Virus record (IMG/VR): IMGVR_UViG_3300033182_000980 | Coordinates: 248,001-312,000 of that record | Source of the DNA: a virus | DNA length: 64,000 nucleotides | Reading direction: 5' to 3' (one strand) | In this document: one piece after another, positions 9,850-33,762 of the stretch | Position numbering within the stretch: position 1 is the first letter of the stretch | Layout of the letters: each line of letters opens with the position of its first letter | Program-made: the position numbers and the translations under genes | Notes under the pieces: model-generated | Database searches by the model: none | What the model was told of the DNA's origin: nothing | What the model saw: only the letters and a program-made list of their open reading frames with translations

Positions 9850-9904
9850 TATATCTCCTTTGTTTGTTTATTTACTTACAGAGGAGATATAAAGAAACTA
9901 TTAG
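9850..9904 (-). promoter_or_regulatory. Late-type promoter and SD-sequestering hairpin for the fibre genes
   Basis: The minus strand carries CTAATAGTTTCTTTATA at 9904-9888. A perfect 10-bp inverted repeat, TATATCTCCT (9891-9882) and AGGAGATATA (9859-9850), has a 22-nt loop. The 3' arm is the SD of the gene starting at 9847, so a transcript from further upstream would mask it. Confidence 0.7.
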
Positions 9905-12660
9905 TGTCTTAAACCAATGTCCGAGAGTGTCTTGTCAACGAGCTTGCGAACCACTTCAAGATCATCTGTCTTTTTGACCACTCGACCATTGACCTCTACG
10001 ATTAAGTTTTTGTAGTCATAGCCCGATCCACTAGACTTGAAACCACTAATAGAAATCTTAGTGTTTGGGGCTTCAATCTTGATGACCCTCTCTCCTTTTC
10101 GGTCAAGTACACCAGTGACTTTGTGTTGCCCCTTCTTGAACATCCACTGTAGCTGTTTTTCAAATCGGCTGAGATCTTGCCACCCAATGTGGTTGCTAAG
10201 TAGTCCAAACAAGCGAGCTTCCATATAGCGAGAAGCGACTCGAATGGCTGGTAAGTCAGACATAAGGTTCTCTTTGACTTGCTCCTTGTCATAGATGATG
10301 CTTGGGTTTGAGAGATACATATTCCTTAGTTTTGAGGACACAGACATCATAAAGTCTTTCATCCCTCGACCAGAGAATCCTTGATTTCTTGCGAGAGTAG
10401 GCAACAAGCTACGATCTTTTAAAATGGAACTTGGGGATCTCAACGCTTCGACTAACTCTCTTTGTTCTTCTGGAGTCAGTTCAAGAGACAGTTCTTCCAT
10501 TCGCCTTAGTTGTTCACGACTAAGTGTGCCGAGATCATGTTGAAGGTTGAAGCCTCGATTCACGAGGTTGATGAAAAACATATAGGGTAGCTTTCTGCTG
10601 TGCGTAGATAAAGCCGCCCTAAATGATTTATGCTCTCTAGCTATCTCCACGAGAACTTCAATAACACCTAGTTTGTCGAGTGTAAGAAGTGCGTCTTTCC
10701 ATGTCTTGGACTTAAAGATATGGAGTAATTCTCGGTAGACACGATCTGGACTCTGATCCTTTAACTTGTGCTTGTTTCTCTTGATCGCTTGGGCTGTATC
10801 TTTGGGGATAGTCAGACCATATTTGACCACAAACTTAACTGCACGAATGATGCGTGTAGGATCTTTCGATAAGGTCTTATCAGCATCTAGGAAACACCTT
10901 GCTTCACCTGCTTCTAAATCCCTAATGCCGCATCCTGTCATGTCGATGATTTCTGCTTTATCTGGACCATCAGCTAAGTCAGATAGTCTCCACATAAGCA
11001 TATTAAATGTGTAGTCTCTGTTTGTTAGGGAGGTGTAGAGATTTGATCCTTCTAACTTCTCTTCTTCGGGGTATTCCTCAACATCTCTAATCTCGATAGC
11101 CGCATCACCATCTTTTGAGAACTCGCTAAGATCAACACCGTCTACGATCCACTCGGAGTTTACCCAAATGTGTGTGCCATACCAGTCAGTCATCACATGG
11201 GTCTGTGCGGGGATCATGTCTACAAGGTTATTAGCAACCCACTCGGCATCCCTTCCTAGATTTTCAGCGTCTACTACAACATCTACATCTTTCACAGGCA
11301 CATCAATCATAAAGTTGCGAATCGCACCACCTGCGACATAAATGTTTTCTGCCACTCCCCGACCCATAGATTTAGTTGCCCTTGAGAGCCACTTCATAAG
11401 GGCAGTTGAGTGAGCGTTTGAGACAGCTAGTTTCTTTCTTCTGGCCATTTTAGAAATCCTTCTCTTGATTAGATTTGGGTCATTTATGATTGATGGATCA
11501 GAGACATACATCTCTCTTAGTTGATCCATTTTGCGAGACATAAAATCTCTCATGTTCGACTTTCCGACACCCTTATGTCTAGCAAGGGTGGGGAGGAAAG
11601 ATTTGTCTTTAATTGCACCACCAGGAGACTTTATGTATTTAACAAGATCTCTCTGTTCCTCGTCCGTTAAGGCGAAGGCTTTTTCCTCTAGCCTAGCGAT
11701 CTGATTTCGATCTAAGACCGACAGGTCATGTCGAAGGGAGATACCTAAGTTGAGCATCCTAATGAAGAACCTATAGGGTAGCTTCTTCGCTTCTGTACTT
11801 AGTGCCGCTCTGAAGCTAGGTTCTTCTTCGGCTATGTCGGCAAGCACCTCAATCAGACCTAACTCTTCAAAGGTATCTAAAACGCTCTCCCATGTTCTCT
11901 CGGATAGGATGCCTCTAATCTCACCATAGATGCGGTTCGGGGGGACTTTGGTTAGAGCGTATCTCGTCTTTAGGATAGCCCTCTTAGTCTCATTAGGGAT
12001 GTTCAGACCATATTTGACTAGGAACTTAACAGCCCTAAGAATACGAGTAGGGTCATCATAGAATGTTTTTTCGGGGTCTAGTGGACACCTTGCTTCGCCT
12101 GCTTCTAAGTCAGCTAATCCACAGCCTGTCATATCTACGATTTCTGCTTGGTCTGGACCATCCGCTAAGTCAGCTAACCTCCACATAAGAGTGTTGAAGG
12201 TAAAGTCTCTACGATAGATGTCCTCTCGAATAGTGGATTTGGTGATCGAGGGTTTGTACCCACCCCCTGTGTCATCAGAGTAAGTCTCTGATCTAGCGTC
12301 CACGATCTCAATCGCCGCATCACCTTCTGCACTAAACTCACTAAGATCAAGACCGTCTACTATCCATTCAGACTTAACGAAGATCTTAGCTACACCATAC
12401 TGATCGCTCACAGTTTCAGTTCGAGCAGGAATCATGTCTGCCAGCTCGTCAGCGAGCCAAGCCGAGTTCTCCCCAAGAGCTATGGAGTCAAGCACAAGGT
12501 CTACATCTTTAACTGGCTTATTGAGCTTAAAGTTGCGTATAGCTCCACCTACTACATAAGTGTTTTCAGCAACATCTCTACCTAGTCTCTTGGTGGATCT
12601 TGAGAGCCACTTCATTAGAGCTACCGAGTGTTCATTAGATACCATTGCTGACTTAATCAT
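9901..12660 (-). CDS. Fused tandem tRNA-nucleotidyltransferase-like protein with a tagged C-terminal module
   Basis: 919 aa from ATG 12660 (SD AGAGG nine bases before; 8-base overlap with the upstream gene). Two homologous units follow each other: residues ~5-400 with VVGGAIRN and DVDLVLD, and residues ~405-800 with VAGGAIRN and DVDVVVD. Each has the GG-x-x-R and D-x-D catalytic signature of class II nucleotidyltransferases and an RI-RAVKF neck motif. The last 120 residues are unrelated and begin MSDLPAIRVASRYMEAR. Internal ATGs at 11448 (SD AAGGA) and 10263 mark each junction, so shorter products are possible. Cellular CCA enzymes are single units of about 400 aa. Whether both units are active, and on what RNA, is unknown. 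Confidence 0.8.
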   Translation of the reverse strand: MIKSAMVSNEHSVALMKWLSRSTKRLGRDVAENTYVVGGAIRNFKLNKPVKDVDLVLDSIALGENSAWLADELADMIPARTETVSDQYGVAKIFVKSEWIVDGLDLSEFSAEGDAAIEIVDARSETYSDDTGGGYKPSITKSTIREDIYRRDFTFNTLMWRLADLADGPDQAEIVDMTGCGLADLEAGEARCPLDPEKTFYDDPTRILRAVKFLVKYGLNIPNETKRAILKTRYALTKVPPNRIYGEIRGILSERTWESVLDTFEELGLIEVLADIAEEEPSFRAALSTEAKKLPYRFFIRMLNLGISLRHDLSVLDRNQIARLEEKAFALTDEEQRDLVKYIKSPGGAIKDKSFLPTLARHKGVGKSNMRDFMSRKMDQLREMYVSDPSIINDPNLIKRRISKMARRKKLAVSNAHSTALMKWLSRATKSMGRGVAENIYVAGGAIRNFMIDVPVKDVDVVVDAENLGRDAEWVANNLVDMIPAQTHVMTDWYGTHIWVNSEWIVDGVDLSEFSKDGDAAIEIRDVEEYPEEEKLEGSNLYTSLTNRDYTFNMLMWRLSDLADGPDKAEIIDMTGCGIRDLEAGEARCFLDADKTLSKDPTRIIRAVKFVVKYGLTIPKDTAQAIKRNKHKLKDQSPDRVYRELLHIFKSKTWKDALLTLDKLGVIEVLVEIAREHKSFRAALSTHSRKLPYMFFINLVNRGFNLQHDLGTLSREQLRRMEELSLELTPEEQRELVEALRSPSSILKDRSLLPTLARNQGFSGRGMKDFMMSVSSKLRNMYLSNPSIIYDKEQVKENLMSDLPAIRVASRYMEARLFGLLSNHIGWQDLSRFEKQLQWMFKKGQHKVTGVLDRKGERVIKIEAPNTKISISGFKSSGSGYDYKNLIVEVNGRVVKKTDDLEVVRKLVDKTLSDIGLRH

Positions 12661-13228
12661 CTGACTTAACCTCTTCTGGTTCGGGTGTGGTTTCGACACC
12701 AAGTGATTTCTTAACCTTTGCTTTGAACATCTTGATAACGAACGCATTTAAAGCACCCGCACTCGCACCCATATAGACATCAATCATCATAAATGGCTTT
12801 GATAAGGTGACTGCAATACCCGCTCCTGTTAAAACAGCAACAAGTCGGATCACAGCGTCAGCCTTCTCTTTACAGGTTTTGAAGATGAAGGGCTTAATGA
12901 TCTGAGTGATCGCTAGGCTCAAGATAGCGGCGTTGACTACAAGATACACATGACCCATAAAGACATCATGTGTTTCACGACCTTCAGCTTTCCAAGGAAT
13001 ATACTCCATATACTGTGTGCAGGCTACACCCTCTTCGTATATTTTACATTCTTGGTTTTCTTCACCACATAGAAGATCATTACCCTCTATGATTTCGCAC
13101 AGCCTCGGTTCAGACTCCCCATCTTTATTCATGGTTTGACAGAGGATTGTATGAACATCAACAAACTGACAATGGTCTGGTAATGCGTGTAGTGGCTCTG
13201 CACTTATAGGTATGTTATGTTTAGCCAT
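12653..13228 (-). CDS. Holin-like membrane protein with Cys-rich N-terminus
   Basis: 191 aa. The N-terminal ~75 residues are polar and contain seven Cys. Residues ~90-165 hold two to three hydrophobic segments (VYLVVNAAILSLAITQIIKP, VIRLVAVLTGAGIAVTL and a third starting MMIDVYMGASAG). A Lys-rich and then acidic tail follows. Size and arrangement of the membrane part resemble phage holins, which form the lysis pore in the inner membrane. No endolysin gene is adjacent, so the lysis role is inference. It is the first gene after a late-type promoter with a masked SD. Confidence 0.5.
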   Translation of the reverse strand: MAKHNIPISAEPLHALPDHCQFVDVHTILCQTMNKDGESEPRLCEIIEGNDLLCGEENQECKIYEEGVACTQYMEYIPWKAEGRETHDVFMGHVYLVVNAAILSLAITQIIKPFIFKTCKEKADAVIRLVAVLTGAGIAVTLSKPFMMIDVYMGASAGALNAFVIKMFKAKVKKSLGVETTPEPEEVKSDD

Positions 13229-13231
13229 GAT

Positions 13232-13282
13232 TCACCTCGCTTCTTTTTATTTAATAAAGCAAGGCGATAAACAAACTATTAA
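13232..13282 (-). promoter_or_regulatory. Late-type promoter and SD-sequestering hairpin for the holin-like gene
   Basis: The minus strand carries TTAATAGTTTGTTTATC at 13282-13266. The next bases form an 11-bp stem (13267-13257 with 13242-13232) that contains two G-U pairs and covers the SD GAGGTGA. The stop codon of the upstream gene is inside the promoter motif. Confidence 0.65.
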
Positions 13283-13620
13283 GTGATAGAGATGCTATGG
13301 CTACTAGACTTAAACCTTCGAGCTAAAGAGTCCCACACCCTCAATGCGGACTCGCTCGTCTTACCCTCATAGAGATAGTCTGGTATAAACTGAAAGGGTT
13401 GCCCCTTGCTTTCAACCTTACCCTCTTTGACCACCTCAAGGTATAACCGAGTACCAATCCCTCGCCCTCTGTATTGGTCTTTAAGCTCACTTTCAAGCAA
13501 GACGAGGGTTTGGGTATTGGGTAAGTAAACAGCGTGAGCAAAACCTACCTCTACGCCCTTATCGAGAGCAAGGATATAGAACCGATCTCTTGTATCTGGC
13601 TCACGCTTAAAAGAAATCAC
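13279..13620 (-). CDS. GNAT-like acetyltransferase-fold protein (1 of 3 tandem paralogues)
   Basis: 113 aa. QYRGRGIGTRLYLEVV near residues 48-63 fits the Q/R-x-x-G-x-G/A acetyl-CoA pyrophosphate loop of GNAT proteins, and a matching ALRVWDSLARRF helix lies near the C-terminus. It shares the order [GNAT loop]-FIPDY-ALRVW-SL with the next two genes. It is the shortest of the three and lacks the N-terminal tag peptide. Overlaps its upstream neighbour by ATGA. The acceptor (protein, small molecule or nucleotide) cannot be deduced. Confidence 0.65.
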   Translation of the reverse strand: MISFKREPDTRDRFYILALDKGVEVGFAHAVYLPNTQTLVLLESELKDQYRGRGIGTRLYLEVVKEGKVESKGQPFQFIPDYLYEGKTSESALRVWDSLARRFKSSSHSISIT

Positions 13621-14156
13621 AGGTGGGGCATCTTATCTATGACGATGACATCACCCTCCGAGTGATACTTCTTAGCAAATGATTTCCATACCCTTAGAGC
13701 CTTATCCGAGGTAGACCTATTGTGGCAGTAGTTAGGCATGAACAACAAAGGCAATCTACCATGTTCAAGCCACGCTTCTTTGACTAACTCAACATACATT
13801 TGAACTCCACATCTCTGACCTTGTAGAGACTCATGGAGATAGGAACTAATAACTTCTACAACAAGAATAACTGGTTCATCTCCATCTTCATATCGAAGCA
13901 TTTCGTCCTCAAACCAATACTCTTCGGATAGCTTCTCAATGTCATCTGCACAGGCAAAATGACCTCTACCCATTTCTTCTAGTGTATAGAAAGCTACATG
14001 GGCTTCACAATGCCCCTTGTATTCACCATCAACTTGAAGCTCAACACCAAGATTAGCATTTCTATCGTCATAGTCAGTGGAGACATCAATGGTGATGTTG
14101 CCCTTTTGGTAATTGGCTTTCATGTAGCGACTAGCTACTCTTTCATAGGATTTCAT
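13617..14156 (-). CDS. GNAT-like protein with N-terminal RVASRYM tag (2 of 3)
   Basis: 179 aa. The first residues, MKSYERVASRYMKA, carry the short peptide that recurs on several late proteins here. The C-terminal half has a degenerate acetyl-CoA loop (LQGQRCGVQMYVELVKE) and the shared LLFMPNY ... ALRVWKSFAKKY pattern. The loop differs from the canonical Q-x-x-G-x-G (Cys replaces the second Gly region), so catalysis is uncertain. Coupled by ATGA overlaps on both sides. N-terminal tagging suggests delivery into the particle, which is inference. Confidence 0.6.
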   Translation of the reverse strand: MKSYERVASRYMKANYQKGNITIDVSTDYDDRNANLGVELQVDGEYKGHCEAHVAFYTLEEMGRGHFACADDIEKLSEEYWFEDEMLRYEDGDEPVILVVEVISSYLHESLQGQRCGVQMYVELVKEAWLEHGRLPLLFMPNYCHNRSTSDKALRVWKSFAKKYHSEGDVIVIDKMPHL

Positions 14157-14650
14157 CTTGTACTCCCATCATATACAATAACATCACCAGACGATGGGAG
14201 CTTACGAGACAGTGATTTCCAGACCCTTAAAGCGGAGTCTGATGTTTCGTCTTGAACACTCTCACAATAGTTAGGGATAAATAGAAAGGGTGCCTGAACC
14301 ATAGAGTAGGTGTGTTCCAGAAACTTTAGGTACATTTCTATTCCGTAGCCTTTACCTCTTGAAGACTTAGCGATCTTACTATCCTTAATAGAAACGATAT
14401 ATATTTTATCCCCTTTAACTAATTTTGGATAACGATCGATGAGTTTATACATATCCTCATAGCACAAATAAGTATCCCCAATGAATTCGGGTTCGATTTC
14501 GTCTTGTTTAACTTTTTCAATCCTACCACTAATGTTTCCTATCAAACTCCCACTGAGGTAGGCATAGCCTTTAGGGTTGCGAGAATGGTTGTTAAAGTTA
14601 AACACCATTTCACTAGCATATCTTAATGCGACTCTCTGATATGGCTTCAT
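14153..14650 (-). CDS. GNAT-like protein with N-terminal RVALRY tag (3 of 3)
   Basis: 165 aa. Starts MKPYQRVALRYASE, a variant of the shared tag. The C-terminal half contains SSRGKGYGIEMYLKFLEH, a good GNAT acetyl-CoA loop, then FLFIPNY and ALRVWKSLSRKL as in its two neighbours. It is the first gene of this small operon, behind a late-type promoter and masked SD. The three genes look like successive tandem duplications with diverged middle regions. Confidence 0.65.
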   Translation of the reverse strand: MKPYQRVALRYASEMVFNFNNHSRNPKGYAYLSGSLIGNISGRIEKVKQDEIEPEFIGDTYLCYEDMYKLIDRYPKLVKGDKIYIVSIKDSKIAKSSRGKGYGIEMYLKFLEHTYSMVQAPFLFIPNYCESVQDETSDSALRVWKSLSRKLPSSGDVIVYDGSTR

Positions 14651-14656
14651 TTTTTG

Positions 14657-14702
14657 TACTCCTTTAATAAGTACAATAGGAGCATAATAAACAATTTATT
14701 AA
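14657..14702 (-). promoter_or_regulatory. Late-type promoter and SD-sequestering hairpin for the GNAT operon
   Basis: The minus strand reads TTAATAAATTGTTTATT at 14702-14686. TGCTCCT (14684-14678) pairs with AGGAGTA (14663-14657), seven pairs with one G-U, covering the SD. Confidence 0.55.
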
Positions 14703-14705
14703 AGG

Positions 14706-15089
14706 ATGGATATTATGGGTGCTGGAGTAATGCTTTTATGCAATAACAAAACGCTAATACTTAAAAGAGCGAACTACAAACATGATCGCTTTTCAGGCTA
14801 TTGGAACTTTCCTGGTGGTCAAGGAGAGCCAAACGAAACGACTTATCAGACAGCCCTAAGAGAGACTGAAGAAGAGACAGGTATCAAACCCGATCAATAT
14901 AAAGTAGTAGACCATGTAGACGACAAGATTTACACGATGTATGTCGGGGTGTGTAAGGAAGAGATCGTGCCTGTCCTAGATCACGAGCATACAGAGTGGG
15001 AGTGGGTTGTCATCTCTAAGATCCCTAGCATGACTCGTGAGATGCACCCCAAGGATTGGCGAGGGTTCAAGAAGTATTATCGGCTTTAG
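14706..15089 (+). CDS. Nudix hydrolase
   Basis: 127 aa, one Nudix domain. The Nudix box lies at about residues 38-60: G38, E44, then RETEEETGI, giving the G-x5-E-x7-RE-U-x-EE-x-G pattern with its metal-binding Glu residues. Nudix enzymes hydrolyse nucleoside diphosphates linked to another group; in phages they can clean nucleotide pools or decap. ATG 14706 has its purine run directly against it, so ATG 14715 (MGAGVMLL), with AAAGG nine bases upstream, may be the real start. Divergent from the GNAT operon. Confidence 0.85.
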   Translation: MDIMGAGVMLLCNNKTLILKRANYKHDRFSGYWNFPGGQGEPNETTYQTALRETEEETGIKPDQYKVVDHVDDKIYTMYVGVCKEEIVPVLDHEHTEWEWVVISKIPSMTREMHPKDWRGFKKYYRL

Positions 15090-15092
15090 AAA

Positions 15093-16175
15093 TCACCACA
15101 CTTGGAAGTGAACCCCTAAAGACCAAGTGTTTGAACCGTCAGCACCGATAACCCAACCAAGACCTGGAGCTATGTTGAGGCTCTTACCCATAATGTAAGG
15201 ATGCCATGTACCCATCACCCCTAGATACTGATTGGACTCGGTTAGAGCAAAGTTAGCTCCTAAGCGATAATCGCCCTTAGCAAAGTTGATAAAGCTACCC
15301 CCAATAGACAACCCAAACTCACCACCTTGAAAGGTTGACCCTACAAGTAAGCTCGGCTCGAACATTCTAAGACCAAGACGAACCGAAGTTGCTGGTGTCG
15401 TTGGGATGTAGACGAGTTGTGAATCGAGGTTAGGGTCGCCTGCCATGAGGATACTTTCAAGACCCTCTAGGGGTACAAACTTCCCTTGCTCATCAGTGTA
15501 CCCTCCATATATGTGAATACCTTGGTTTTGAACAGCTCCAGAACCCAAACTATCACCCTCACCATAAGTGATAGCAACAACCTTAAATGCGAGGTTGAAG
15601 TCTATGTGGTTGTCTAGTTCAGCCCAAAGATTTCTACTCCGAAAGGTATATGCTGGCCTACCATTAAAACTAAAAGGAGATCGCCAACTAAACTCAAATG
15701 GCTCACATCTTTCGGGGTGGTCGGAACACCTGTGCCTATCCTCCCTAGAAACACCAGGCCAACTCTGAGGTGGTGCAGGTGTTGGTTCTCTGCCACTTCT
15801 AAGGGATGAGATACCTCTGTTAAGTTTGCCCTCCATACGAACAAATCTTTGACTGATAGCTCTTATCTCTGCACCTGTCTCGGATTTGAAATCGCTTATG
15901 GCTTGCTGTGTTCTTTGGTCAAGACCGCTGATGATCGCATTCGCTCTTTGTTCAAGAGTGACTCGGTCAACCATATGAGACTGAACTGTACCTAGAGTGG
16001 TTTCAATCGCAGAAATCTTCTGTGCGTTCTCGGACAAGATGCCCTTCATTTGATTTTGGATCGTATCGTTCATTCTTTGCATCTTGTAGACAGACCAAGC
16101 GTTGCCTCCTACAGAAATCAAGAACAGGCTCAAGAGTGCGTAAGCTCCATATTTGATGTTCGCCAACTCAATCAT
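15093..16175 (-). CDS. Membrane-anchored protein with coiled coil and beta-rich C-terminus, unknown
   Basis: 360 aa. One N-terminal membrane segment (YGAYALLSLFLISVGGNAWSV, residues ~10-30, too uncleaved-looking for a clear signal peptide) is followed by a coiled coil to about residue 125. A Pro/Arg-rich linker with two Cys comes next, then a 190-residue beta-rich domain with alternating hydrophobic strands (RLGANFALTESNQYLGVMGT, and an end in VW). The C-terminal part looks like outer-membrane barrel strands. An envelope role in lysis or host surface change is possible; I cannot name the family. Confidence 0.6.
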   Translation of the reverse strand: MIELANIKYGAYALLSLFLISVGGNAWSVYKMQRMNDTIQNQMKGILSENAQKISAIETTLGTVQSHMVDRVTLEQRANAIISGLDQRTQQAISDFKSETGAEIRAISQRFVRMEGKLNRGISSLRSGREPTPAPPQSWPGVSREDRHRCSDHPERCEPFEFSWRSPFSFNGRPAYTFRSRNLWAELDNHIDFNLAFKVVAITYGEGDSLGSGAVQNQGIHIYGGYTDEQGKFVPLEGLESILMAGDPNLDSQLVYIPTTPATSVRLGLRMFEPSLLVGSTFQGGEFGLSIGGSFINFAKGDYRLGANFALTESNQYLGVMGTWHPYIMGKSLNIAPGLGWVIGADGSNTWSLGVHFQVW

Positions 16176-16208
16176 AGTAAATCTCCTTTCTTTGTTAGGA
16201 GATACTAT
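16174..16208 (-). promoter_or_regulatory. SD-sequestering leader hairpin
   Basis: On the minus strand ATAGTATCTCCT (16208-16197) pairs with AGGAGA-TT-TACTAT (16187-16174), a stem of about 12 bp with a 2-nt bulge that covers the SD and touches the start codon at 16175. No good late-promoter motif lies directly upstream, unlike the other hairpins. Confidence 0.45.
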
Positions 16209-16254
16209 ACCATGACCGAGCTAGTCCACCTTCTTCTTAATCTGATCCGATCTC

Positions 16255-16446
16255 CTATTCTTTATCTTCTACAACTACGATCTCTCGTGTCGTCTTACCT
16301 GTGCTGTAGTCGATGTTCTCACGAACCCGAAAGACAGGTGGTGGTTCGGGTTGTGGTGGTCGGCTGTAGTAGCGAACTTCATTTTTCCACTGACCTCCGA
16401 CTTCGACCCACACTCGCTCTCCATTTTCCATTCGCTTGTAAGGCAT
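16255..16446 (-). CDS. Small unknown protein (63 aa)
   Basis: 63 aa, basic start, Pro-rich middle (RPPQPEPPPVFRV) and acidic end. It has an SD AAAGGAG. No family recognised. It sits between two other small leftward genes. Confidence 0.5.
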   Translation of the reverse strand: MPYKRMENGERVWVEVGGQWKNEVRYYSRPPQPEPPPVFRVRENIDYSTGKTTREIVVVEDKE

Positions 16447-16461
16447 TGTATTTCTCCTTTG

Positions 16462-16692: not shown

Positions 16693-16702
16693 CCACCCCC
16701 CT

Positions 16703-17098: not shown

Positions 17099-17138
17099 AT
17101 TAGGTTCTCCTTTCAAGAGATTGAGTTGATGACATTGG

Positions 17139-17158: not shown

Positions 17159-17211
17159 AGGGGGCGAGGGTTGCTCACTCACAGTGAGGATTGCTCCTCG
17201 GTACACAATCT

Positions 17212-17228
17212 TATAGATAAGGGGTTAC
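17212..17228 (-). promoter_or_regulatory. CCCCTTAT-type promoter motif (distal)
   Basis: The minus strand reads GTAACCCCTTATCTATA, identical over 17 bases to the site at 31118-31134. It forms a tandem pair with the proximal copy 54 bases downstream. Confidence 0.5.
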
Positions 17229-17229
17229 G

Positions 17230-23081: not shown

Positions 23082-23123
23082 AAACCCTCGATTGCCCTAG
23101 TGGTAGTCGGGGGTTTTTCTTTT
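23082..23123 (+). terminator. Rho-independent terminator, possibly bidirectional
   Basis: A 14-pair stem (23083-23096 with 23102-23115, with G-U pairs) and 5-nt loop CTAGT is followed by TTTTTCTTTT. An A-rich stretch precedes it. It lies between convergent genes ending at 23043 (+) and 23122 (-). Confidence 0.8.
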
Positions 23124-24366
23124 AGTGGGCCAGAGACATATATCGGGAAGCAACCCTTGAAGCGGCTCGTGCCATTTGTAGGTTATCTACGAGATCGGGA
23201 TTTCTTTTAATGTCTTTCATTTTAAGGAAATCACCTTGCATAGTCTTTACGAACATATCCTTTTCCGAGGTGAGGTTATTAACTTCTTTAACGACATGGT
23301 TTTCAACTTTCTTTCCTCCAAACCATGACTTCCAGACCTTACCAAACTTCTTTGCCATTTTCTTAGCGAGAACTGATTTGAGTACGCCTGCTAAAGCACC
23401 TTTTGTGAGTAAGGTATAGATAATGCCACCACCAAGAACAGCAGAGACTACTTTTGTTCCTAATAAAGTCGCTAGGATAATTTTGAACCCTGCGTAGGCG
23501 GCCCCAACAAGCAAAGCACCTGTACCAGCGGCAAACGCTTTCATTGTGCCACCTTCACCGTCACCCATTACTTGCTTCCAAGTGTCTTTCATAGCTGGTA
23601 TCAAAGATAGTGGGTTCAAGAGGGCGTTAAGCTCTTTGAGGATTGCTCCGACAACTTTCACACCCATCTCTTTCTGGACGATTTCTTGAGCAGACTGCTT
23701 GATGCTTTTCATGGCTGAATCTGGCATCTTCATTCTTCTAGGGTCTGCCTTTTTCCCACGCTGTTCTTCTAATGACTTTTGTACTCTTGGGTCTGGATTT
23801 TTGATTAACTCGTCATAGTACATCCAGCCCTCTAAATAAGAGTCAAAGTGGAACGCAAATACCTCATTGGTGAATGGGCTACTAAAGTCTTGAGTGTTCC
23901 GATCTTCATCTGTTTGAAACCATCCACTTATAAGCTCACCTGTGTTATAATCCTTATCTTGATCGGTGTCCCACTTAAACTTTCTTTCAACACACCCTTG
24001 CCACCAAGACCAGTAGTTGCCTTCAGCGACTTTACCTATGATGGATTTTTGCAGACCTTCGGTCATCAGATCTACAAAGGGAGTGTCTACAATAAACTTT
24101 TGTAGGAGTTCATAGAAGGTCTTTACAAACTTCTCTTTCAACCCTTTGACCCACGCAAGACCCGTATTGATTGTGTTTGAAATCCAGTTCTTGATCTTAC
24201 CAAAGAAGCCTGTTTTTTGGTACTCAAGCTGTGCGACTCTAAGCTGTAAGAGTGCAATCTTGACCATTTGAGGTTCATCCACCATAGGTAAGCGACTTGC
24301 TCTTTTAGTCCTGTAGTGAGCTTGGAAAACATCTGGGTCTGCGAGTAGATCAAAAGCGTATTTCAT
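23122..24366 (-). CDS. Unknown late membrane-active protein with C-terminal RVASRYM tag
   Basis: 414 aa. Hydrophobic Gly/Ala-rich segments lie at about residues 270-335 (AGTGALLVGAAYAGFKIILA and ILATLLGTKVVSAVLGGGII). A basic stretch (KKMAKKFGKVWKSWFGGKK) follows. The protein ends ...MARAASRVASRYMSLAH, so the shared tag is at the extreme C-terminus, again directly after a Met. The late promoter, masked SD and membrane-active segments suggest an internal virion or ejection protein, which is inference. Confidence 0.6.
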   Translation of the reverse strand: MKYAFDLLADPDVFQAHYRTKRASRLPMVDEPQMVKIALLQLRVAQLEYQKTGFFGKIKNWISNTINTGLAWVKGLKEKFVKTFYELLQKFIVDTPFVDLMTEGLQKSIIGKVAEGNYWSWWQGCVERKFKWDTDQDKDYNTGELISGWFQTDEDRNTQDFSSPFTNEVFAFHFDSYLEGWMYYDELIKNPDPRVQKSLEEQRGKKADPRRMKMPDSAMKSIKQSAQEIVQKEMGVKVVGAILKELNALLNPLSLIPAMKDTWKQVMGDGEGGTMKAFAAGTGALLVGAAYAGFKIILATLLGTKVVSAVLGGGIIYTLLTKGALAGVLKSVLAKKMAKKFGKVWKSWFGGKKVENHVVKEVNNLTSEKDMFVKTMQGDFLKMKDIKRNPDLVDNLQMARAASRVASRYMSLAH

Positions 24367-24375
24367 TGTTCCATT

Positions 24376-24421
24376 CCTTTACAAATTATTTAGTAAAGAC
24401 AACCTATAAATAGTCTACAAA
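24376..24421 (-). promoter_or_regulatory. Late-type promoter and SD-sequestering hairpin
   Basis: The minus strand reads TTTGTAGACTATTTATA at 24421-24405. TCTTTAC (24399-24393) pairs with GTAAAGG (24382-24376), with one G-U, covering the SD AAAGGA of the gene starting at 24366. Confidence 0.6.
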
Positions 24422-26764: not shown

Positions 26765-26813
26765 TAGTTTCTTTATGACTCACTTTATTCAACCATTTGA
26801 AAGTTGGAGTCAT
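26761..26813 (+). promoter_or_regulatory. Late-type promoter and SD-sequestering hairpin
   Basis: TTGATAGTTTCTTTATG at 26761-26777, then ATGACTC (26775-26781) pairs perfectly with GAGTCAT (26807-26813). An inner CAAC/GTTG helix (26790-26793 with 26803-26806) adds stability. The SD GGAG is in the 3' arm; the gene starts at 26815. Confidence 0.65.
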
Positions 26814-26814
26814 T

Positions 26815-27858: not shown

Positions 27859-28181
27859 AATCTAGGTTCTCTACCTCGACACCATTTGGACTCATCTTCA
27901 GTCCAATAGAGCCTAGCCTTACCACGCTTCTTCTTTAGAGCCATCTCTGCTTTCATGGCTTCTGATCTGTTAGCGTATGTGCCATAGGTACACATCAACA
28001 CCCAAGGTCGGTGCTTAGAGGTGTACTTAGCACCGCCTTTGATTTCTCCATTGTGCTGCCGTAGCCTCCGATTAACATCTGTGGTGCTACCCACATAGAA
28101 GAAACCAGGTAGCTGTTTACCTGTCTTAGCTGATCTTCTGATCTGCTGACTCTGAATGACATATACGACCCATTCGCTCAT
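27855..28181 (-). CDS. GIY-YIG (UPF0213/YhbQ-like) endonuclease-fold protein
   Basis: 108 aa from ATG 28181 (MSEWVVYVIQSQQ), SD AAAGGA. VYVI ... GFFYVGSTTDVNRRLRQHNG gives the GIY-YIG pair (YVI/FYVG) and the Arg helix; KYTSKHRPW follows as in the single-domain YhbQ-like group. A catalytic Glu is expected near EAMKAEMALKK. It could be a homing-type or repair nuclease. The start region overlaps the late promoter of the rightward gene at 28239. Convergent with the gene ending at 27858. Confidence 0.8.
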   Translation of the reverse strand: MSEWVVYVIQSQQIRRSAKTGKQLPGFFYVGSTTDVNRRLRQHNGEIKGGAKYTSKHRPWVLMCTYGTYANRSEAMKAEMALKKKRGKARLYWTEDESKWCRGREPRF

Positions 28182-28182
28182 G

Positions 28183-28228
28183 TTTGTAGTTCCTTTATAT
28201 CTTGTCACATAGCGATTATATGACGAAG
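28183..28228 (+). promoter_or_regulatory. Late-type promoter and SD-sequestering hairpin
   Basis: TTTGTAGTTCCTTTATA at 28183-28199. CTTGTCA (28201-28207) pairs with TGAC-G-AAG (28221-28228), seven pairs with one bulge, reaching the SD AAGGA. The gene starts at 28239. Confidence 0.5.
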
Positions 28229-28238
28229 GAATAATACC

Positions 28239-28689
28239 ATGAGAAATCATAACAAGATGGCAAGTCGGGTCGCATATCGCTACATGAAGCAAGCTGGACT
28301 TTTGAGCAAGATTGTAAACTTCTTCTCGGAGTCTCCTCGTGAGAAAGCAAAGAAGCCAGTTTACGATGTCGCTAAGTTTTGGGTGACCGCAGGGATGTAT
28401 GGCACGACTATGGGAGAGGTTTCTAGGGAGCTAAAAACTCAAAGGCAAAGACACAGCGATTATTGATGTCAATGGTCGTAAAGTTAAGCTCTCTCTTGAG
28501 ATGGATCGTGTTAAGATGAAAGATGACGGAGGCATCAAAGGCAACATCTTCGTTGCGATTTCTCTTACAGGGGTAGACGAGAATGTTCCTAAGAGGGATC
28601 TTGAAAAGATGCTTATGCAGATTGTGAAAGAGACTCGTCTTAGGAATGTGTTTACCTCAACCCCTGTGGAACACCCAAGGATGGGCTAG
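28239..28689 (+). pseudogene. Tagged late protein interrupted by a +1 frameshift
   Basis: Frame 1 (28239-28466) encodes MRNHNKMASRVAYRYMKQAG and stops after 75 aa. Another frame continues directly with LKGKDTAIIDVNGRKVKLSL into the ORF at 28501-28689. Removing one A from the A5 run at 28433-28437 would join them into about 149 aa. The joined product resembles the tagged protein at 32933: tag, then QAGL and FF-SE, then a C-terminal GGI-x-N-x-FV ... LEKMLMQIV region. This may be a recent mutation, a sequencing error, or phase variation at the A run. No classical slippery heptamer is seen. Confidence 0.6.
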
Positions 28690-29270
28690 ACCTCTAAGCT
28701 CACCCCAAAGAGCCGACCTTCCGACACCCTGTCGATCTTAATCGACTTCATACCTTGTAGGTTCAGAGACTCTGTGGACAGCTCACCAATCGTGAGGCTT
28801 GACCCTGTGGTGAGGGTGAACATCAGACCTCCGATGTTCACCTCTTTAGTGTCGGTGTTAGTCGGCTCTGATGGAGGTTCTTCACTAGAGGATGTATCAC
28901 CATTCTCCATGATGCTGTGCATCTGATCCCTAAACTTCTTTGGAAGCTCACAGCCGTACAGCCCTTTAAGGTGGCTATTGAGCTGATTGACCGACTTAAA
29001 CCTGTGGCATACCTTCTTTGAGTATTCGAGGATTGAGGCATGGATGAGGACTTTCTCTCCACCTTGAGCACCCCTTTGAGAAGCGTACCTACGGATCGTT
29101 TTTAAAGCACTCGTAAAAAGCTCTTTATCGACTGACCAATTTGGGTGCTTGTGCTGGTGCAGTACAGTCCAGATGTGGTCTGGACTCACTGGATTCTTTT
29201 GACCATGATCGAGGTCAAGGTACTTCATAGGGTTGTGTAGGATGTCCTTTGCCATTGATGACAGGCTCAT
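28686..29270 (-). CDS. Unknown 194-aa protein sharing a C-terminal domain with its upstream neighbour
   Basis: The N-terminal ~120 residues are helical and unrecognised. After a Ser/Pro/Thr-rich linker, the last ~55 residues (ending KSIKIDRVSEGRLFGVSLEV) match the last 50 of the 408-aa protein upstream in the pattern IGE-x-E-x-[IL]...DR[VI]-x-[EN]-x-L-[FY]GV. SD AAAGG in the end of that gene. Probably partners, with a shared small beta-rich domain. Confidence 0.6.
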   Translation of the reverse strand: MSLSSMAKDILHNPMKYLDLDHGQKNPVSPDHIWTVLHQHKHPNWSVDKELFTSALKTIRRYASQRGAQGGEKVLIHASILEYSKKVCHRFKSVNQLNSHLKGLYGCELPKKFRDQMHSIMENGDTSSSEEPPSEPTNTDTKEVNIGGLMFTLTTGSSLTIGELSTESLNLQGMKSIKIDRVSEGRLFGVSLEV

Positions 29271-29272
29271 GT

Positions 29273-30499
29273 TTAACCTTTCTTGATCTTAACCCCATAC
29301 AGGGTGTTGTTTTCAATGCGATCTACTTCGAGGTTGATGCCACCGTAAATGTGGATTCCACCCTCTAGCTGTACCTCCCCGATACAGATCACATTGTCGT
29401 TGGGAGTGATTTTAAGAGTACCGAGTAGGACATAAGGTTCTGTCGGTGATTGCTCTTGAGTTGAGACAGGAAGCTCAACAGTCGGATCTTCCTCGATGAT
29501 TGGATTTTGAGCCATTAAGTCATCGCATTCCTCTTGAGTCATAGGTACGACCATGTTCTCCTCTGCTGTGGCTTCGACCACTGCAACAAAGGCTTCCTCT
29601 CGCTCTCGCTTGTTCTTCTTAGCTTTGGGGCGTCCAGGCTTTGGGAAGTGTTCGTCTATGACCTCCACAGTTTCGGGAGACAAGCTATCAATGCTCAACC
29701 CGAAGATCAGCTTTAGAGCATAGTTAAGGTTAGACTTACTTTGAAAGTCTCTTAGGTTCGTTCCTAGATAAGCATCACGCACCCATTGGTCAGCGATCAT
29801 TTTCACTTGACCTAGACCCAAGCTACCCTCTTTGAAAGACTTAAAGACCTCGATCAGCTTAAAGTACGGAGACTTGCCTTTATTGACGATATGGAGAGGT
29901 TGAAGAGTTGCCTTTCGCCCTTCGAGTGAAGCCACACGATTGAGCATATTCCGAGTTGTCTCTGAACTCTCTTTAGAGTAGCTGACCCAAAGACGATCCC
30001 ACTTAGCGACCATTCGCTTCTTACCATCACGAACCCAAGGCATACGCTCGTAGGCATCTTTGCCTGTAAAGACCCCCTCATCGTCCATGCCGAGAAGGGG
30101 TAAAACAAAGAAGTGTTCGCCTAGAAACTCGTTCCAAGTCTCATAAAGGTCAAGCTCCTCTTGAGTGGTATCTAGGTCGGTGCTGATGGGTAACTGATAG
30201 CAATGCCTTATGTCTGTCTCGGCTATTGCTGTCTTGTGCGAGCACTCGATAAACTTGACATTAGCCTTAGTAGCCTCTTGTCTAGCCCAGTTTCTTAAGC
30301 TGTGGTTGCAGTTGGATTTGAGGACAAGGACTAGGTCAGTACCAGAAGGTATATCCTCTCTGCGATCTGCCGATTGATCCCAAGTCTTGTGGTTGCCGAT
30401 GACGAGCTGAAGCTCTTTGCCGAAACGCTTGTTAAGGCGTTCGACAAACTTAGAAGCGAACTTGGACTCGCCTCCGATAACGAATGTGTTCTGTTGCAT
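29273..30499 (-). CDS. DUF2325-like protein with C-terminal beta domain
   Basis: 408 aa. The N-terminal ~90 residues (FVIGGESKFASKFVERLNKR, then DLVLVLKSNCNHSLRNWARQ) fit the DUF2325 pattern: a GG-containing Rossmann-like strand, a conserved Asn/His region and a FIECSHK end. The middle is unrecognised. GRPKAKKNKR near residue 292 resembles an AT-hook-like basic patch. The last 50 residues are shared with the next gene. SD AAAGGAG. DUF2325 proteins have no settled function, so none is given here. Confidence 0.65.
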   Translation of the reverse strand: MQQNTFVIGGESKFASKFVERLNKRFGKELQLVIGNHKTWDQSADRREDIPSGTDLVLVLKSNCNHSLRNWARQEATKANVKFIECSHKTAIAETDIRHCYQLPISTDLDTTQEELDLYETWNEFLGEHFFVLPLLGMDDEGVFTGKDAYERMPWVRDGKKRMVAKWDRLWVSYSKESSETTRNMLNRVASLEGRKATLQPLHIVNKGKSPYFKLIEVFKSFKEGSLGLGQVKMIADQWVRDAYLGTNLRDFQSKSNLNYALKLIFGLSIDSLSPETVEVIDEHFPKPGRPKAKKNKREREEAFVAVVEATAEENMVVPMTQEECDDLMAQNPIIEEDPTVELPVSTQEQSPTEPYVLLGTLKITPNDNVICIGEVQLEGGIHIYGGINLEVDRIENNTLYGVKIKKG

Positions 30500-30552
30500 G
30501 GTACTCCTTTGAGAGTGGATTGATAGAGAGGGCTTCCCCCAAGACCCTTATA

Positions 30553-30834
30553 TTATTCAGCCTCGATGGTAGCCGAACAGTTGGTTGCAAAGACGGAGTC
30601 GCCCTCGACGGTCAAGAAAGACCAGATACCCGACCGACCTCCGTAGGAGTTATAAGGGTGTCGCTTGGTCTGATAGTTAGTCCACCCTGTCGGTCCTTCA
30701 CATGAGATGGTGTAGACCTTAGAGGTATCGGACATCTCTCTGTCGGGTCGGGTCGATACTGCGTTCTCATAGCTTGCATTGGGGCTACAAGCTACAGCGA
30801 GTAGGGCTAAGACTGTAAAAGCAATCGCTTTCAT
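30553..30834 (-). CDS. Small lipoprotein
   Basis: 93 aa from ATG 30834 (SD AAAGGA). MKAIAFTVLALLAVAC is a signal peptide with a LAVAC lipobox, so Cys16 would be lipidated. The mature part (77 aa) has two further Cys that could form a disulphide (SCEGP ... TNCSA). Envelope-located, possibly superinfection exclusion or a spanin-like role; the family is not recognised. A CCCCTTAT-type promoter lies upstream at 30886-30902. Confidence 0.7.
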   Translation of the reverse strand: MKAIAFTVLALLAVACSPNASYENAVSTRPDREMSDTSKVYTISCEGPTGWTNYQTKRHPYNSYGGRSGIWSFLTVEGDSVFATNCSATIEAE

Positions 30835-30885
30835 GGTATTGTGTCCTTTCAAGACTGTTAAGAGCAACATCGCTCGATACTAGAC

Positions 30886-30902
30886 GATAGATAAGGGGAT
30901 AC
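30886..30902 (-). promoter_or_regulatory. CCCCTTAT-type promoter motif for the lipoprotein gene
   Basis: The minus strand reads GTATCCCCTTATCTATC, one of a family with 17212-17228, 31118-31134 and 31764-31780. It points at the lipoprotein gene about 50 bases downstream and lies just before the divergent gene at 30907. Confidence 0.5.
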
Positions 30903-30906
30903 AACC

Positions 30907-31140
30907 ATGTATTATGTTCAGAACAAGACCACAGGACAGCCACTCTATTACACGCATAAAGGCAAGGTAGAGAAGGTCTACTCGCTACGCATCGTGGCAG
31001 AAATCGAAGCCGAGAAAGCTGACCAAGCGAACCACTTAAAGACAGCCCGGATTGATGTCGTTGAGCTATCCAAGTCAGCTCGCCTATATATGGAGAACCA
31101 AGCGAGAATGTGTGGCTGTAACCCCTTATCTATACCCTAG
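30907..31140 (+). CDS. Small unknown protein (77 aa)
   Basis: 77 aa: MYYVQNKTTGQPLYYTHKGK start, then a helical middle. SD-like AAGGGG is 8-13 bases upstream but is part of an opposing promoter motif. Its end carries a CCCCTTAT-type promoter (31118-31134) for the next gene. No family recognised. Confidence 0.5.
   Translation: MYYVQNKTTGQPLYYTHKGKVEKVYSLRIVAEIEAEKADQANHLKTARIDVVELSKSARLYMENQARMCGCNPLSIP
31118..31134 (+). promoter_or_regulatory. CCCCTTAT-type promoter motif
   Basis: GTAACCCCTTATCTATA, identical to the minus-strand copy at 17212-17228. It is 55 bases upstream of the gene starting at 31190. Confidence 0.5.
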
Positions 31141-31189
31141 TGTCGAGGGCAATGAAGCCCACCAACCACTCCCACTAAGGAGAACAAAA

Positions 31190-31753
31190 ATGACTGCGAC
31201 AGCAACCCCCACCCACTTTGTATGCGACCCTTGCTATGTCCTTCACACTATCGACCCAGAGGGCACTCCCCACTCTGAGGGTCTTTGGGTCAAGAGCTTC
31301 GTTGAGGCTCTTTGCAATGCCGAAGAAGCTGACGACTTTGACGGACACCTCACTTACATGGGACACCCCATCTTTGTGCATAGCACAGCACATGGTGATG
31401 GCTCATACAATGGGTCAGACGGACGCTCTTACTTTGTTGACGCAGGGATCATCGGAGCAATCCCTGTTGAGCTGATCGAGGACGAGGTAGTCCAAGAGAT
31501 GATCAAACAACCTTATGTCCGAGCTGTGAGCATGACCAAGAGTCAACTCGGTATGGCTGACTACTATGAGGGTACTTTCACCTTCTACACAAGTGAGGGC
31601 CGTCTTGAGATCGAGACTGATCCCGAAGAGGAATACAAGTGCGAGGACTGTGGTGAGGAGATCAGCGAGTATGAGTACAACGATGACGCTGTATGTAAGT
31701 GGTGTCGAGCTGACCGAGAGGAGGAGGAGCGAGAGGAGGAAGATGAGGACTAG
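31190..31753 (+). CDS. Unknown 187-aa protein with C-terminal zinc-ribbon-like motif
   Basis: Start ATG 31190 (MTATATPTHFVCDPCYVL), SD AAGGAG; a longer in-frame start overlaps the previous gene and has no SD. FVCDPCYVL near the N-terminus and FVDAGIIGAIPVELI in the middle look like a conserved phage family I cannot name. The C-terminus has CEDCGEE ... CKWC, a probable zinc knuckle, then a very acidic tail. Confidence 0.65.
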   Translation: MTATATPTHFVCDPCYVLHTIDPEGTPHSEGLWVKSFVEALCNAEEADDFDGHLTYMGHPIFVHSTAHGDGSYNGSDGRSYFVDAGIIGAIPVELIEDEVVQEMIKQPYVRAVSMTKSQLGMADYYEGTFTFYTSEGRLEIETDPEEEYKCEDCGEEISEYEYNDDAVCKWCRADREEEEREEEDED

Positions 31754-31763
31754 GGGAAAAGTC

Positions 31764-31780
31764 GTAACCCCTTACCTATA
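31764..31780 (+). promoter_or_regulatory. CCCCTTAT-type promoter motif
   Basis: GTAACCCCTTACCTATA, one mismatch from the other copies, 56 bases upstream of the gene at 31836. Confidence 0.5.
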
Positions 31781-31835
31781 ACATCCTGTGAGGAACGATC
31801 CTCACCAACTAACTACTCTGACAAGGAGAGCAAAT

Positions 31836-32204
31836 ATGAGCATGGCGATGGATCTTTACCGAGAAGTAATGAGTGAGTTTAATGATGAGAGCCCGTACTA
31901 TCGACCTCACCTCGCTGATCATGGGTATGACTACGAGGACGGATACTGGTTCGCTGTGTTCGTAAACAAAGATGTAGTCGCTCGTAAAGACTACCCTAAG
32001 TTTGGCATCAAGAAAGGCGAGAAGCATCGCTTCATCAAGAGTAAGTACATCTGTGACGAGACAGGCTGTAGCTCTTGGGAAGTGGAGCGTAAAGCTCTTT
32101 CACCCACAGTAAGCCCCACACCTGTTATGTCTGATAGAGACGCTTGGTATGCCGAGGGATATAAATCAAGTTGGACTGGATCTTGGACTCAAAAGGATAA
32201 ATAA
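31836..32204 (+). CDS. Unknown 122-aa protein
   Basis: Start ATG 31836 (MSMAMDLYREVMSEFND), SD AAGGAGAG. Acidic N-terminal half, a KKGEKHRFIKSKYICDET middle and a Ser/Thr/Pro-rich end. Its stop TAA overlaps the ATG of the next small gene (TAATG). No family recognised. Confidence 0.6.
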   Translation: MSMAMDLYREVMSEFNDESPYYRPHLADHGYDYEDGYWFAVFVNKDVVARKDYPKFGIKKGEKHRFIKSKYICDETGCSSWEVERKALSPTVSPTPVMSDRDAWYAEGYKSSWTGSWTQKDK

Positions 32205-32278
32205 TGGCATACGCTTTAATCTGTGGACTGATAGAGGTGTCAATCATAATCACCTTAATAAAGGCATGGAGGTCATAA
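32204..32278 (+). CDS. 24-aa single-pass membrane microprotein
   Basis: MAYALICGLIEVSIIITLIK plus AWRS: one membrane helix with a basic end. It starts in a TAATG junction with the previous gene and ends in another TAATG junction with the next, and the next gene's SD (GGAGG) is inside its last codons. That chain of coupled junctions is the main evidence that it is real. Confidence 0.55.
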   Translation: MAYALICGLIEVSIIITLIKAWRS

Positions 32279-32535
32279 TGAGACAAGTAGAAGCTATCAG
32301 CTATCTGTTAGGGCAAGACCCCCGACCTAACGGATCAAATTTTAACTGGTCGGGTATCACCCATTCGGGCGAACGCCTTAGCCTCTATTACGAGGTCAAC
32401 CGTAAACTTAGTGATCTACATTGGGTGGAGGTCATGGACTCACGAGGCGTACTAGGCTTACCTACAGATGACTTTGGTCTAGTCGGTATCAATATCTCGG
32501 ACTTACCCAAATACTTTAAGCAAGAGGAGAAATGA
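32278..32535 (+). CDS. Unknown 85-aa protein
   Basis: Start ATG 32278 (MRQVEAISYLLGQDPRPNG), SD GGAGG. The longer frame from 32149 overlaps two genes and is unlikely. Beta-rich, no family recognised. The end (GAGGAG) supplies the SD of the next gene. Confidence 0.6.
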   Translation: MRQVEAISYLLGQDPRPNGSNFNWSGITHSGERLSLYYEVNRKLSDLHWVEVMDSRGVLGLPTDDFGLVGINISDLPKYFKQEEK

Positions 32536-32536
32536 A

Positions 32537-32866
32537 ATGGGTTTAGATCAATATGGTTTCGCTCGTAAAGAGGGCAAGAAAGATACACAACTCATGCAAT
32601 GGCGTAAGCACTCAAACCTTGAGGGTTGGATGCAAGAGCTTTACGCTGAAAAGGGTGGCACAGAAATGTTCAACTGCGTTGAGCTATCCCTCACCAAAGA
32701 GGATTTGTTGAGGCTCAAGGCAGAGTACAAGAGTTTAGAGGAAGCATCTGGGTTCTTTTGGGGTACAAGTCAATCCTCGGATGATGTGGACACTGGTCGC
32801 TTTATTGAGCTTGCCCTTGTCGCTTTAGAGGAGGGGTATGAGGTCATCTACACATCCTGGTGGTGA
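32537..32866 (+). CDS. Conserved-looking unknown protein (109 aa)
   Basis: 109 aa: MGLDQYGFARKEG start and EEGYEVIYTSWW end. This looks like a phage family with a conserved MGLDQY start. Its 3' end and the promoter after it are partly repeated at 33666-33770. Function not known to me. Confidence 0.65.
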   Translation: MGLDQYGFARKEGKKDTQLMQWRKHSNLEGWMQELYAEKGGTEMFNCVELSLTKEDLLRLKAEYKSLEEASGFFWGTSQSSDDVDTGRFIELALVALEEGYEVIYTSWW

Positions 32867-32869
32867 CGA

Positions 32870-32925
32870 TTTATATTTTCTTTATAAGATCTCCATTGGT
32901 GCTAACCCTTAACCGACAATGGAGA
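32870..32925 (+). promoter_or_regulatory. Late-type promoter and SD-sequestering hairpin
   Basis: TTTATATTTTCTTTATA at 32870-32886. TCTCCATTG (32890-32898) pairs perfectly with CAATGGAGA (32917-32925), which holds the SD of the gene at 32933; the loop is 18 nt. Confidence 0.7.
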
Positions 32926-32932
32926 ATGACCT

Positions 32933-33670
32933 ATGAGAAGATCAGCATCAGAAGTAATCAGAGAGCTTGAGTCAAGAGTCGATCAGCTTGAAAAACAAGC
33001 TGGTCTATTTGATTTCTTTCGCAGTGAGAAAACGATTCAAACCGAGACTAAAGAGCTTGAGAAGTTAGTCAAGTCTATACGAGGTGTCAGTCGTGTTGCC
33101 ATTGACATCAAAAACCGAGATCGTTGCAAAATGAAAGTAACCTATGAAGGTGAAACCCTTATTCTTAAAGGGTGGTGCAATGATGATGAGTTAGGTATTT
33201 ATGGTAAGGGCAAAAGAGCTGTCTATATACCAGGTAGTCCAGGTGTCGGACTTTTGACAACACACGGCATAAGATCAAGGGGAGGAAGACCTTCATCTAA
33301 AGGGGGGAAGATTAACACTTATGTATTTGGGGGTCAGATAAGACGAGGCAAAGTGATTACAGTCAGTCTCTACACCATGAATGGATCTCGTGTTAAAGAT
33401 ACCAAAGAACTTGAGGCTTTCTTAGATTTGATTTTAGAGGATGCACTCGATGATGGACCTCGCAAGAGGGAAGAAGAAATCGAGAGACAGAGGATTGAGA
33501 AGGAAAGGGTTGAACAGGAGAGGGTACACAACAGAAAGGTGCAGAAGGAGAGGGAAGAGCGTAAGCGTCAAAAGAGGGAGATGTTTGAAAAGAACAGACA
33601 AAAAAAGATGCAGGGTAGGCAAGCCAGCCTAAGCTCAAACCGATTAGTAAAGAGCAGAAGCCATTGGTGA
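32933..33670 (+). CDS. Late protein with N-terminal MRRSASEVI tag and charged coiled-coil tail
   Basis: 245 aa. Opens MRRSASEVIRELESRVDQLE, the shared tag, then KQAGLFDFFRSEK. The middle is an alpha/beta domain related to the frameshifted gene at 28239. Residues ~180-245 are an Arg/Lys/Glu-rich single helix, probably nucleic-acid- or protein-binding. The charged tail and late promoter suggest a virion-internal protein (inference). Function unknown. Confidence 0.6.
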   Translation: MRRSASEVIRELESRVDQLEKQAGLFDFFRSEKTIQTETKELEKLVKSIRGVSRVAIDIKNRDRCKMKVTYEGETLILKGWCNDDELGIYGKGKRAVYIPGSPGVGLLTTHGIRSRGGRPSSKGGKINTYVFGGQIRRGKVITVSLYTMNGSRVKDTKELEAFLDLILEDALDDGPRKREEEIERQRIEKERVEQERVHNRKVQKEREERKRQKREMFEKNRQKKMQGRQASLSSNRLVKSRSHW

Positions 33671-33701
33671 TGGATATGGAGTCATCTACACTTCGTGGTA
33701 G
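33666..33701 (+). pseudogene. Remnant of the 3' end of the 109-aa gene
   Basis: Read from 33666, the bases encode GDGYGVIYTSW-stop, matching EEGYEVIYTSWW-stop at the end of the gene ending at 32866. A late promoter and a tagged gene follow in both places. So the 3' gene end, promoter, leader and tag were duplicated as a block. Confidence 0.7.
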
Positions 33702-33706
33702 TGATT

Positions 33707-33762
33707 TTTATAAATTATTTATAGGTTCTCATAAGTGATCTAACCTTAACCCCTATGGAGAA
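33707..33762 (+). promoter_or_regulatory. Late-type promoter and SD-sequestering hairpin
   Basis: TTTATAAATTATTTATA at 33707-33723. TTCTCATA (33726-33733) pairs with TAT-G-GAGAA (33754-33762), eight pairs with one bulge, over the SD of the gene at 33768. Confidence 0.6.

Follow-up and report, generated by a model that had tools for sequence, protein, structure and literature searches.

A 64,000-nucleotide stretch of phage DNA (the window; bases 248,001–312,000 within a 375,691-base phage record) holds genes preceded by a TTTATA promoter-like box whose downstream flank can fold back on the gene's own Shine–Dalgarno (SD) sequence, which raises the question of what a promoter gains by lying inside a hairpin that hides the ribosome-binding site it serves. 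In a handful of T4 genes, long the textbook example, a change of transcript start site frees the SD. Folding models lead us to consider it likely that the hairpins here are translation locks opened by the start site of the transcript. In this mechanism the promoter would be part of a hairpin: the TTTATA box and the next ∼10 nucleotides (nt) would make up the 5′ arm, and the 3′ arm would contain the SD of the promoter's own gene. RNA entering from upstream would contain the whole arm, fold and hide the SD, whereas RNA started at the gene's own promoter would be missing the SD-facing part of the arm and leave the SD open, with the gene then translated only from the latter. Given that start site as a premise, the SD-complementary sequence would be missing from the gene's own transcript and would therefore act only on RNA arriving from upstream.

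The window encodes a phage-type DNA polymerase, a DnaB-like helicase and a baseplate-like protein. We compared the genome holding the window (G000) with related records (the other G numbers): the DnaB protein is present at 92–95% identity in three records, further records were gathered by a DNA-polymerase scan at 39–99% identity, and LR745208, from an annotated collection, is distant (DnaB match 43%). A longer promoter-like motif, WRTAGTTTNTTTATA, ends in the TTTATA box; it scores above 12 upstream of 67 of the 439 predicted G000 genes, against a single gene for the reversed motif, and is found in most relatives. Exact TAGTTTNTTTAT does not occur in LR745208, nor in G016 and G017, which are the two most distant records; G016 (618 kb) and LR745208 (485 kb) were not used because the motif is absent from them and no strong upstream motif emerged. 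An earlier note on this DNA had listed nine window leaders with the box, and TTTAT indeed occurs in all nine, each time within the longer motif. The upstream stop codon lies at one of two fixed distances from the box in 55 co-directional leaders: it ends exactly 4 nt ahead of the box in 21 and 7 nt ahead in 34, being either the TAG of TAGTTT or the triplet preceding it, as at window promoters 9893 and 13271. RNA that spans the end of the upstream gene and continues must therefore enter the 5′ arm.

Pairing between each promoter region and the SD of its own gene was assessed by a swap test on 75 G000 leaders, in which 12-nt windows over the promoter were set against the last 22 nt before the start codon (positions here and below are counted from the first T of the box). 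A clear advantage of the own SD over swapped SDs was confined to windows with starts from 0 to +9 (z −5.8 to −7.3); those spanning +3 to +18 gave z −7.3 and −7.1, with none of 1,000 permutations as good, and z was between −0.3 and −3.0 for starts upstream of the box. Pairing over the whole arm was −9.4 for own against −7.3 for swapped SDs (z −7.0). Swapping is uninformative within the box, where sequences are nearly identical, and pairing there was therefore tested separately: 21 helices extend to the first base after the box, and these run on into it by a mean of 2.10 nt where 0.50 would be expected (0 of 2,000 draws as good). Helices of 19 base pairs (bp) at window gene 2443 and of 21 bp at 212878 in G008 are examples. 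A shared protein-binding site was also considered as the cause of these inverted repeats and was rejected, the arm sequences differing between leaders.

We then modelled the cost of opening the SD, in kcal/mol, for full-length and 5′-truncated RNAs in 166 non-redundant leaders from eleven records, the difference between full-length RNA and RNA truncated at +12 serving as the lock score. Mean cost was 6.2 for the long RNA, 5.1 from +6, 3.3 from +12 and 2.9 from +14, and thus collapses between modelled 5′ ends of +6 and +12 or +14; it does not do so in shuffled leaders with the same 5′ ends (3.9, 3.3, 3.2 and 3.1). Dinucleotide shuffles fell from 4.2 to 3.3 on truncation at +12, so that the loss was 2.97 in real leaders against 0.91 in these shuffles (standard deviation 0.12). 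With 20 own shuffles for each genome-wide leader, 43 of the 166 exceeded all of theirs where 8 would be expected, and about one-third lost at least 3 kcal/mol compared with 10% of shuffles, a fraction that was 65% in G008 and 11% in G002. Leaders of genes without the promoter showed mean losses of only 0.28 to 1.25 (p=3e-14 versus promoter leaders). The effect also follows the direction of the upstream gene: mean loss was 3.81 where that gene is co-directional and 1.48 where it is divergent (one-sided p=0.005 over all records), the divergent leaders exceeding their shuffles only slightly (1.48 versus 0.89, p=0.02).

These controls bear on two other explanations. The pairing might simply follow from base composition, if the polymerase prefers a pyrimidine-rich start region that resembles an anti-SD by chance; the average leader is indeed C/T-rich at +7 to +13, and most individual leaders are unremarkable against their own shuffles. 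However, the swap test preserves composition and still returns z −7, dinucleotide shuffles do not reproduce the effect, and helices of up to ∼20 bp include loop-proximal and box-proximal bases unrelated to the SD, which makes this explanation improbable. Alternatively, ribosomes finishing the upstream gene could open the hairpin through translational coupling, its overlap with the promoter being incidental, as might be supposed from the many co-directional cases in which the upstream stop lies in or adjoins the promoter. Same-strand junctions of 25–120 nt that lack the promoter nevertheless gave a mean drop of 1.25, with 15% at 3 kcal/mol or more, against 3.55 and 40% where it is present (p=7e-5), and a ribosome at those stops would, judging from known ribosome footprints, extend no further than about the last bases of the box and leave most helices intact. 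We consider coupling very unlikely.

For the individual leaders of the window, 200 dinucleotide shuffles were made of each (Table 1). The earlier note had proposed that the sequence just after the box pairs with the gene's SD at all nine. This holds for the leaders as a set, as the swap test shows, and individually for those of genes 2443, 9847, 13228 and 32933. The leader of gene 26815, scored from its ATG although the open reading frame list starts at the TTG at 26797, is a borderline lock. Four leaders do not behave in this way: the SD pairing of 14650 is not relieved by truncation at +12, locks at 24366 and 33762 (the latter scored from the in-frame ATG at 33768) are unsupported, and masking of the SD in the long RNA of 28239 is no greater than in shuffles. 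A hairpin that masks the SD or start codon in the long RNA is thus predicted for four of the nine window leaders and about one-third genome-wide, and a promoter, recognized by its motif, is contained in the 5′ arm or immediately precedes it. No Rfam family matched at the leaders in the window.

Table 1. Leaders and promoter of the TTTATA class in the window, with modelled cost of opening the SD in full-length RNA and in RNA truncated at +12.
Feature	Window coordinates	Strand	Box or promoter	Paired arms	Opening cost or drop (kcal/mol)	Comparison with shuffles
Leader of baseplate-like gene 1403-2443	2445..2491	-	TTTATC 2491-2486	2490-2472 (beginning inside the box), 2463-2445 (SD); 19-bp helix	16.5 to 2.5	0/200
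Leader of 488-aa gene 8381-9847	9850..9893	-	TTTATA 9893-9888	9891-9882, 9859-9850 (AAGGAG)	14.1 to 1.5	0/200
Leader of 191-aa gene 12653-13228	13232..13271	-	13271-13266	13267-13256, 13243-13232 (GAGGTG)	11.2 to 2.5	0/200
Leader of gene 14153-14650	14657..14691	-	14691-14686	7-bp SD pairing	drop 0.3	p=0.80
Leader of gene 23122-24366	24367..24410	-	promoter present		drop -2.0	p=0.97
Leader of gene with ATG 26815	26772..26813	+	TTTATG 26772-26777	~26775-26786, ~26800-26813	6.9 to 2.5	p=0.055
Leader of gene 28239-28466	28194..28238	+	promoter present		7.9 vs 0.7	p=0.30
Leader of gene 32933-33670	32881..32925	+	TTTATA 32881-32886	TCTCCATTG 32890-32898, CAATGGAGA (SD) 32917-32925	8.7 to 2.1	masking p=0.005; drop 0/200
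Leader of gene 33762-34496	33718..33761	+	promoter present		drop 0.6	p=0.20
Promoter of gene 2503-4887	4887..4947	-	TGTAGATCGTTTATAC, motif score 14.6			

Where transcripts begin is central to this mechanism. If TTTATA acts as a −10 element, RNA would start at about +12 to +14, the interval by which the modelled cost has collapsed. Were transcription to start at or right after the box instead, the gene's own RNA would keep the hairpin, which would then be a constitutive 5′ stem-loop serving RNA stability or control by a protein. The helix often begins 0–2 nt after the box, as would suit such a structure, and some phage polymerases start beside a TAT-type element, such as the phiKZ TATG with G as +1 (PMC7598289). 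On the other hand, the SD of every such gene would always be masked, pairing continues into the box, the effect tracks the direction of the upstream gene, and we found no phage RNA polymerase. There was no match to PF00562 in G000 and no β′-type DFDGD motif in the six frames of G000, G008 and G018, although a very divergent multisubunit enzyme could escape both searches; for a T7-type single-subunit enzyme, PF00940 matched T7 itself and not G000, G008 or G018. A phage-encoded polymerase starting next to the box was rejected on these grounds, and the constitutive stem-loop seems to us very improbable. Nor did searches for a gp55-type late sigma factor (phrog_234 and phrog_12791, against G000, G003, G008 and G018) or for sigma70 region 2 return a match. 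With no phage polymerase found, a host polymerase with ordinary −10 spacing is favoured, and our working assumption is that the host enzyme acts with some specificity factor. The idea in the earlier note that a start downstream of the box would free the SD agrees with the geometry on each count, namely the collapse in cost between +6 and +12 or +14, the entry of helices into the box, the absence of the effect without the promoter, its greater strength below a co-directional upstream gene and the same geometry in the T4 precedents.

Among relatives the lock architecture recurs but turns over, and is not a conserved element of particular genes. For gene 2443, close relatives keep the 19-bp hairpin with a few changes of the G-U type, and a different long hairpin is similarly placed in G008 (48% protein identity) and in G011 and G013 (42%). 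Comparable replacement of one hairpin by another is seen at G000 208512 and 97191, and relatives sharing the architecture often have unrelated arm sequences. The earlier note had described pairing as kept by G-U and compensating changes and had suggested covariation analysis; the data bear this out only weakly. Among 19 close leader pairs, changes had occurred at 45 helix pairs, of which 20 were still paired (19 by one-sided and one by two-sided change) and 25 were lost. The leader of 2443 showed five one-sided changes and no two-sided ones. What relatives share is the architecture and not its strength gene by gene.

We used T4 as a positive control. Hairpins that sequester the SD at late promoters are described there for e, soc, 49, I-TevI, I-TevII, I-TevIII and segB, and in Aeh1 for mobE, and for those T4 genes reviews describe an SD freed by the start site (PMC3014915, PMC2988022). 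The same calculation recovered e (about 12–13 falling to 2.7), 49, I-TevI, segB and I-TevII, and missed I-TevIII. As a negative control T4 was not cleanly negative: 38% of a set of 24 late leaders lost at least 3 kcal/mol against 21% of shuffles (p=0.017), and a stricter set of 14 showed no excess (p=0.49). T4 may therefore use locks somewhat beyond the named cases, and the modest excess makes the contrast between T4 and this group of uncultured huge phages a difference of degree.

Several of our results weigh against a lock keyed by the transcript start. The effect is strong only in a minority, a quarter to a third of box leaders, so that its extension in the earlier note across the late genes was too broad. 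Within G000 alone the excess at co-directional leaders is not significant (p=0.25). Some helices lie at +12 to +20, so that an RNA started at +12 would still keep them in part, and the start itself enters the argument as an unmapped premise. Between orthologs with unrelated leaders, lock strength does not correlate (rho −0.02, 71 pairs), and two-sided compensatory changes are rare. Finally, the measure, being confined to the SD, misses T4 soc, for which the predicted pairing falls outside the SD hexamer that was scored; the parallel that the earlier note drew with e and soc is therefore recovered for e and not seen for soc.

If leaders are locked, from which RNA are they shielded? The earlier note had named early read-through RNA, and T4 e and I-TevI are explained by a timing function of this kind, in which the lock keeps late genes silent on read-through RNA of the early or middle period (PMC3014915, PMC2988022). 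Such a function would fit the genes concerned: baseplate-like, endolysin/CHAP and amidase-like products are among those encoded behind the box, and the top motif matches include no such promoter for the DNA polymerase and helicase genes of the window. The name ‘late’ for the class is an inference from these few gene functions, a search for terminase having given no match and one for tail sheath a single weak match below cut-off. However, among 19 strong co-directional leaders with a detectable upstream promoter in their gene run, the nearest is of the TTTATA class in 18 and of another class (GTAACCCC) in one. Within the window, genes 13228 and 14650 have TTTATA promoters upstream of the locked leaders 9847 and 13228, and a transcript from the promoter of 4887 would enter the locked leader of 2443. 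With the nearest upstream promoter of the same class, the RNA entering locked leaders is plausibly contemporaneous, and early RNA is not the obvious target. Another 15 strong cases have no detectable upstream promoter, and for these early RNA may be the source. Most likely the locked RNA comes by read-through from neighbouring promoters of the same class, and possibly from earlier transcription too, so that protecting a gene against the transcripts of its neighbour accounts for the lock as well as a delay does. We regard the timing function, a sub-case of the lock whose standing overlaps with that of the lock itself, as rather unlikely. A genome-scale rule of insulation, by which many genes would be translatable only from their own promoter and locked against any neighbour's RNA, even contemporaneous RNA of the same class, is a tentative possibility that we place somewhat below an even chance.

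What is new here is the scale, the promoter and possibly the purpose; the mechanism itself was known already. As in T4, the 5′ arm lies in or just after the promoter box, the 3′ arm contains the SD, and truncation opens it. Unlike T4, the promoter is TAGTTTNTTTATA and not TATAAATA (the latter occurs four times in the window, near chance), no gp55 relative is detectable, tens of genes are involved and same-class promoters seem to supply most of the upstream RNA. The late promoters of the jumbo phages phiKZ and AR9 are likewise short AT-rich motifs in very large genomes; no multisubunit polymerase was found here, unlike in those phages, and embedding in an SD hairpin is not reported for their promoters in the available text of PMC7598289. 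In the open literature, subscription papers and preprints being outside the scope of the search, we found the T4 and Aeh1 cases but nothing that describes such locks on a genome-wide scale.

Other features of these promoters were recorded. A second promoter-like class in G000 consists of GTAACCCCTTATCTATA followed ∼5 nt on by TAGTGT; its 52 sites include two in the window, near 17226 (− strand) and 31120 (+ strand), and many at 335–362 kb, and several precede a short stem-loop (such as GAGGGC...GCCC) that excludes the SD. A weak YYYATAWG motif lies ∼11–20 nt after the start of the TTTATA box more often than in shuffles, for example in leaders 9847 and 33762 and at G000 162831 and 365994; it is possibly an initially transcribed sequence, and the signal may in part reflect related leaders. 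Many genes with a WRTAGTTTNTTTATA promoter begin ATGAGAAGA or ATGAGAAAT (Met-Arg-Arg/Asn), among them window genes 32933, 33762 and 28239 and many elsewhere in G000, and the leaders of some share CATTGGTGATC...CAATGGAG, which suggests a family duplicated as gene plus leader. Elsewhere in the window, four genes (34884, 38474, 45188 and 46356; 34884–47570, − strand) match phrog_12517 and DNA-methyltransferase families and are probably a paralogous set. A 948-aa gene (9901–12747, − strand) matches tRNA nucleotidyltransferase families over two separate parts, 147–305 and 467–684, and is perhaps a fused or duplicated enzyme; ARAGORN found no tRNA genes in the window.

If the start-site lock operates as proposed, a second, unrelated lineage would be using it with an unrelated promoter at tens of genes, which would suggest that such locks evolve easily. 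It would also provide a general rule for interpreting phage operons, by which a gene behind a locked promoter is not assumed to be expressed together with the gene upstream. If the insulation rule also held, physical operons would behave as single-gene units.

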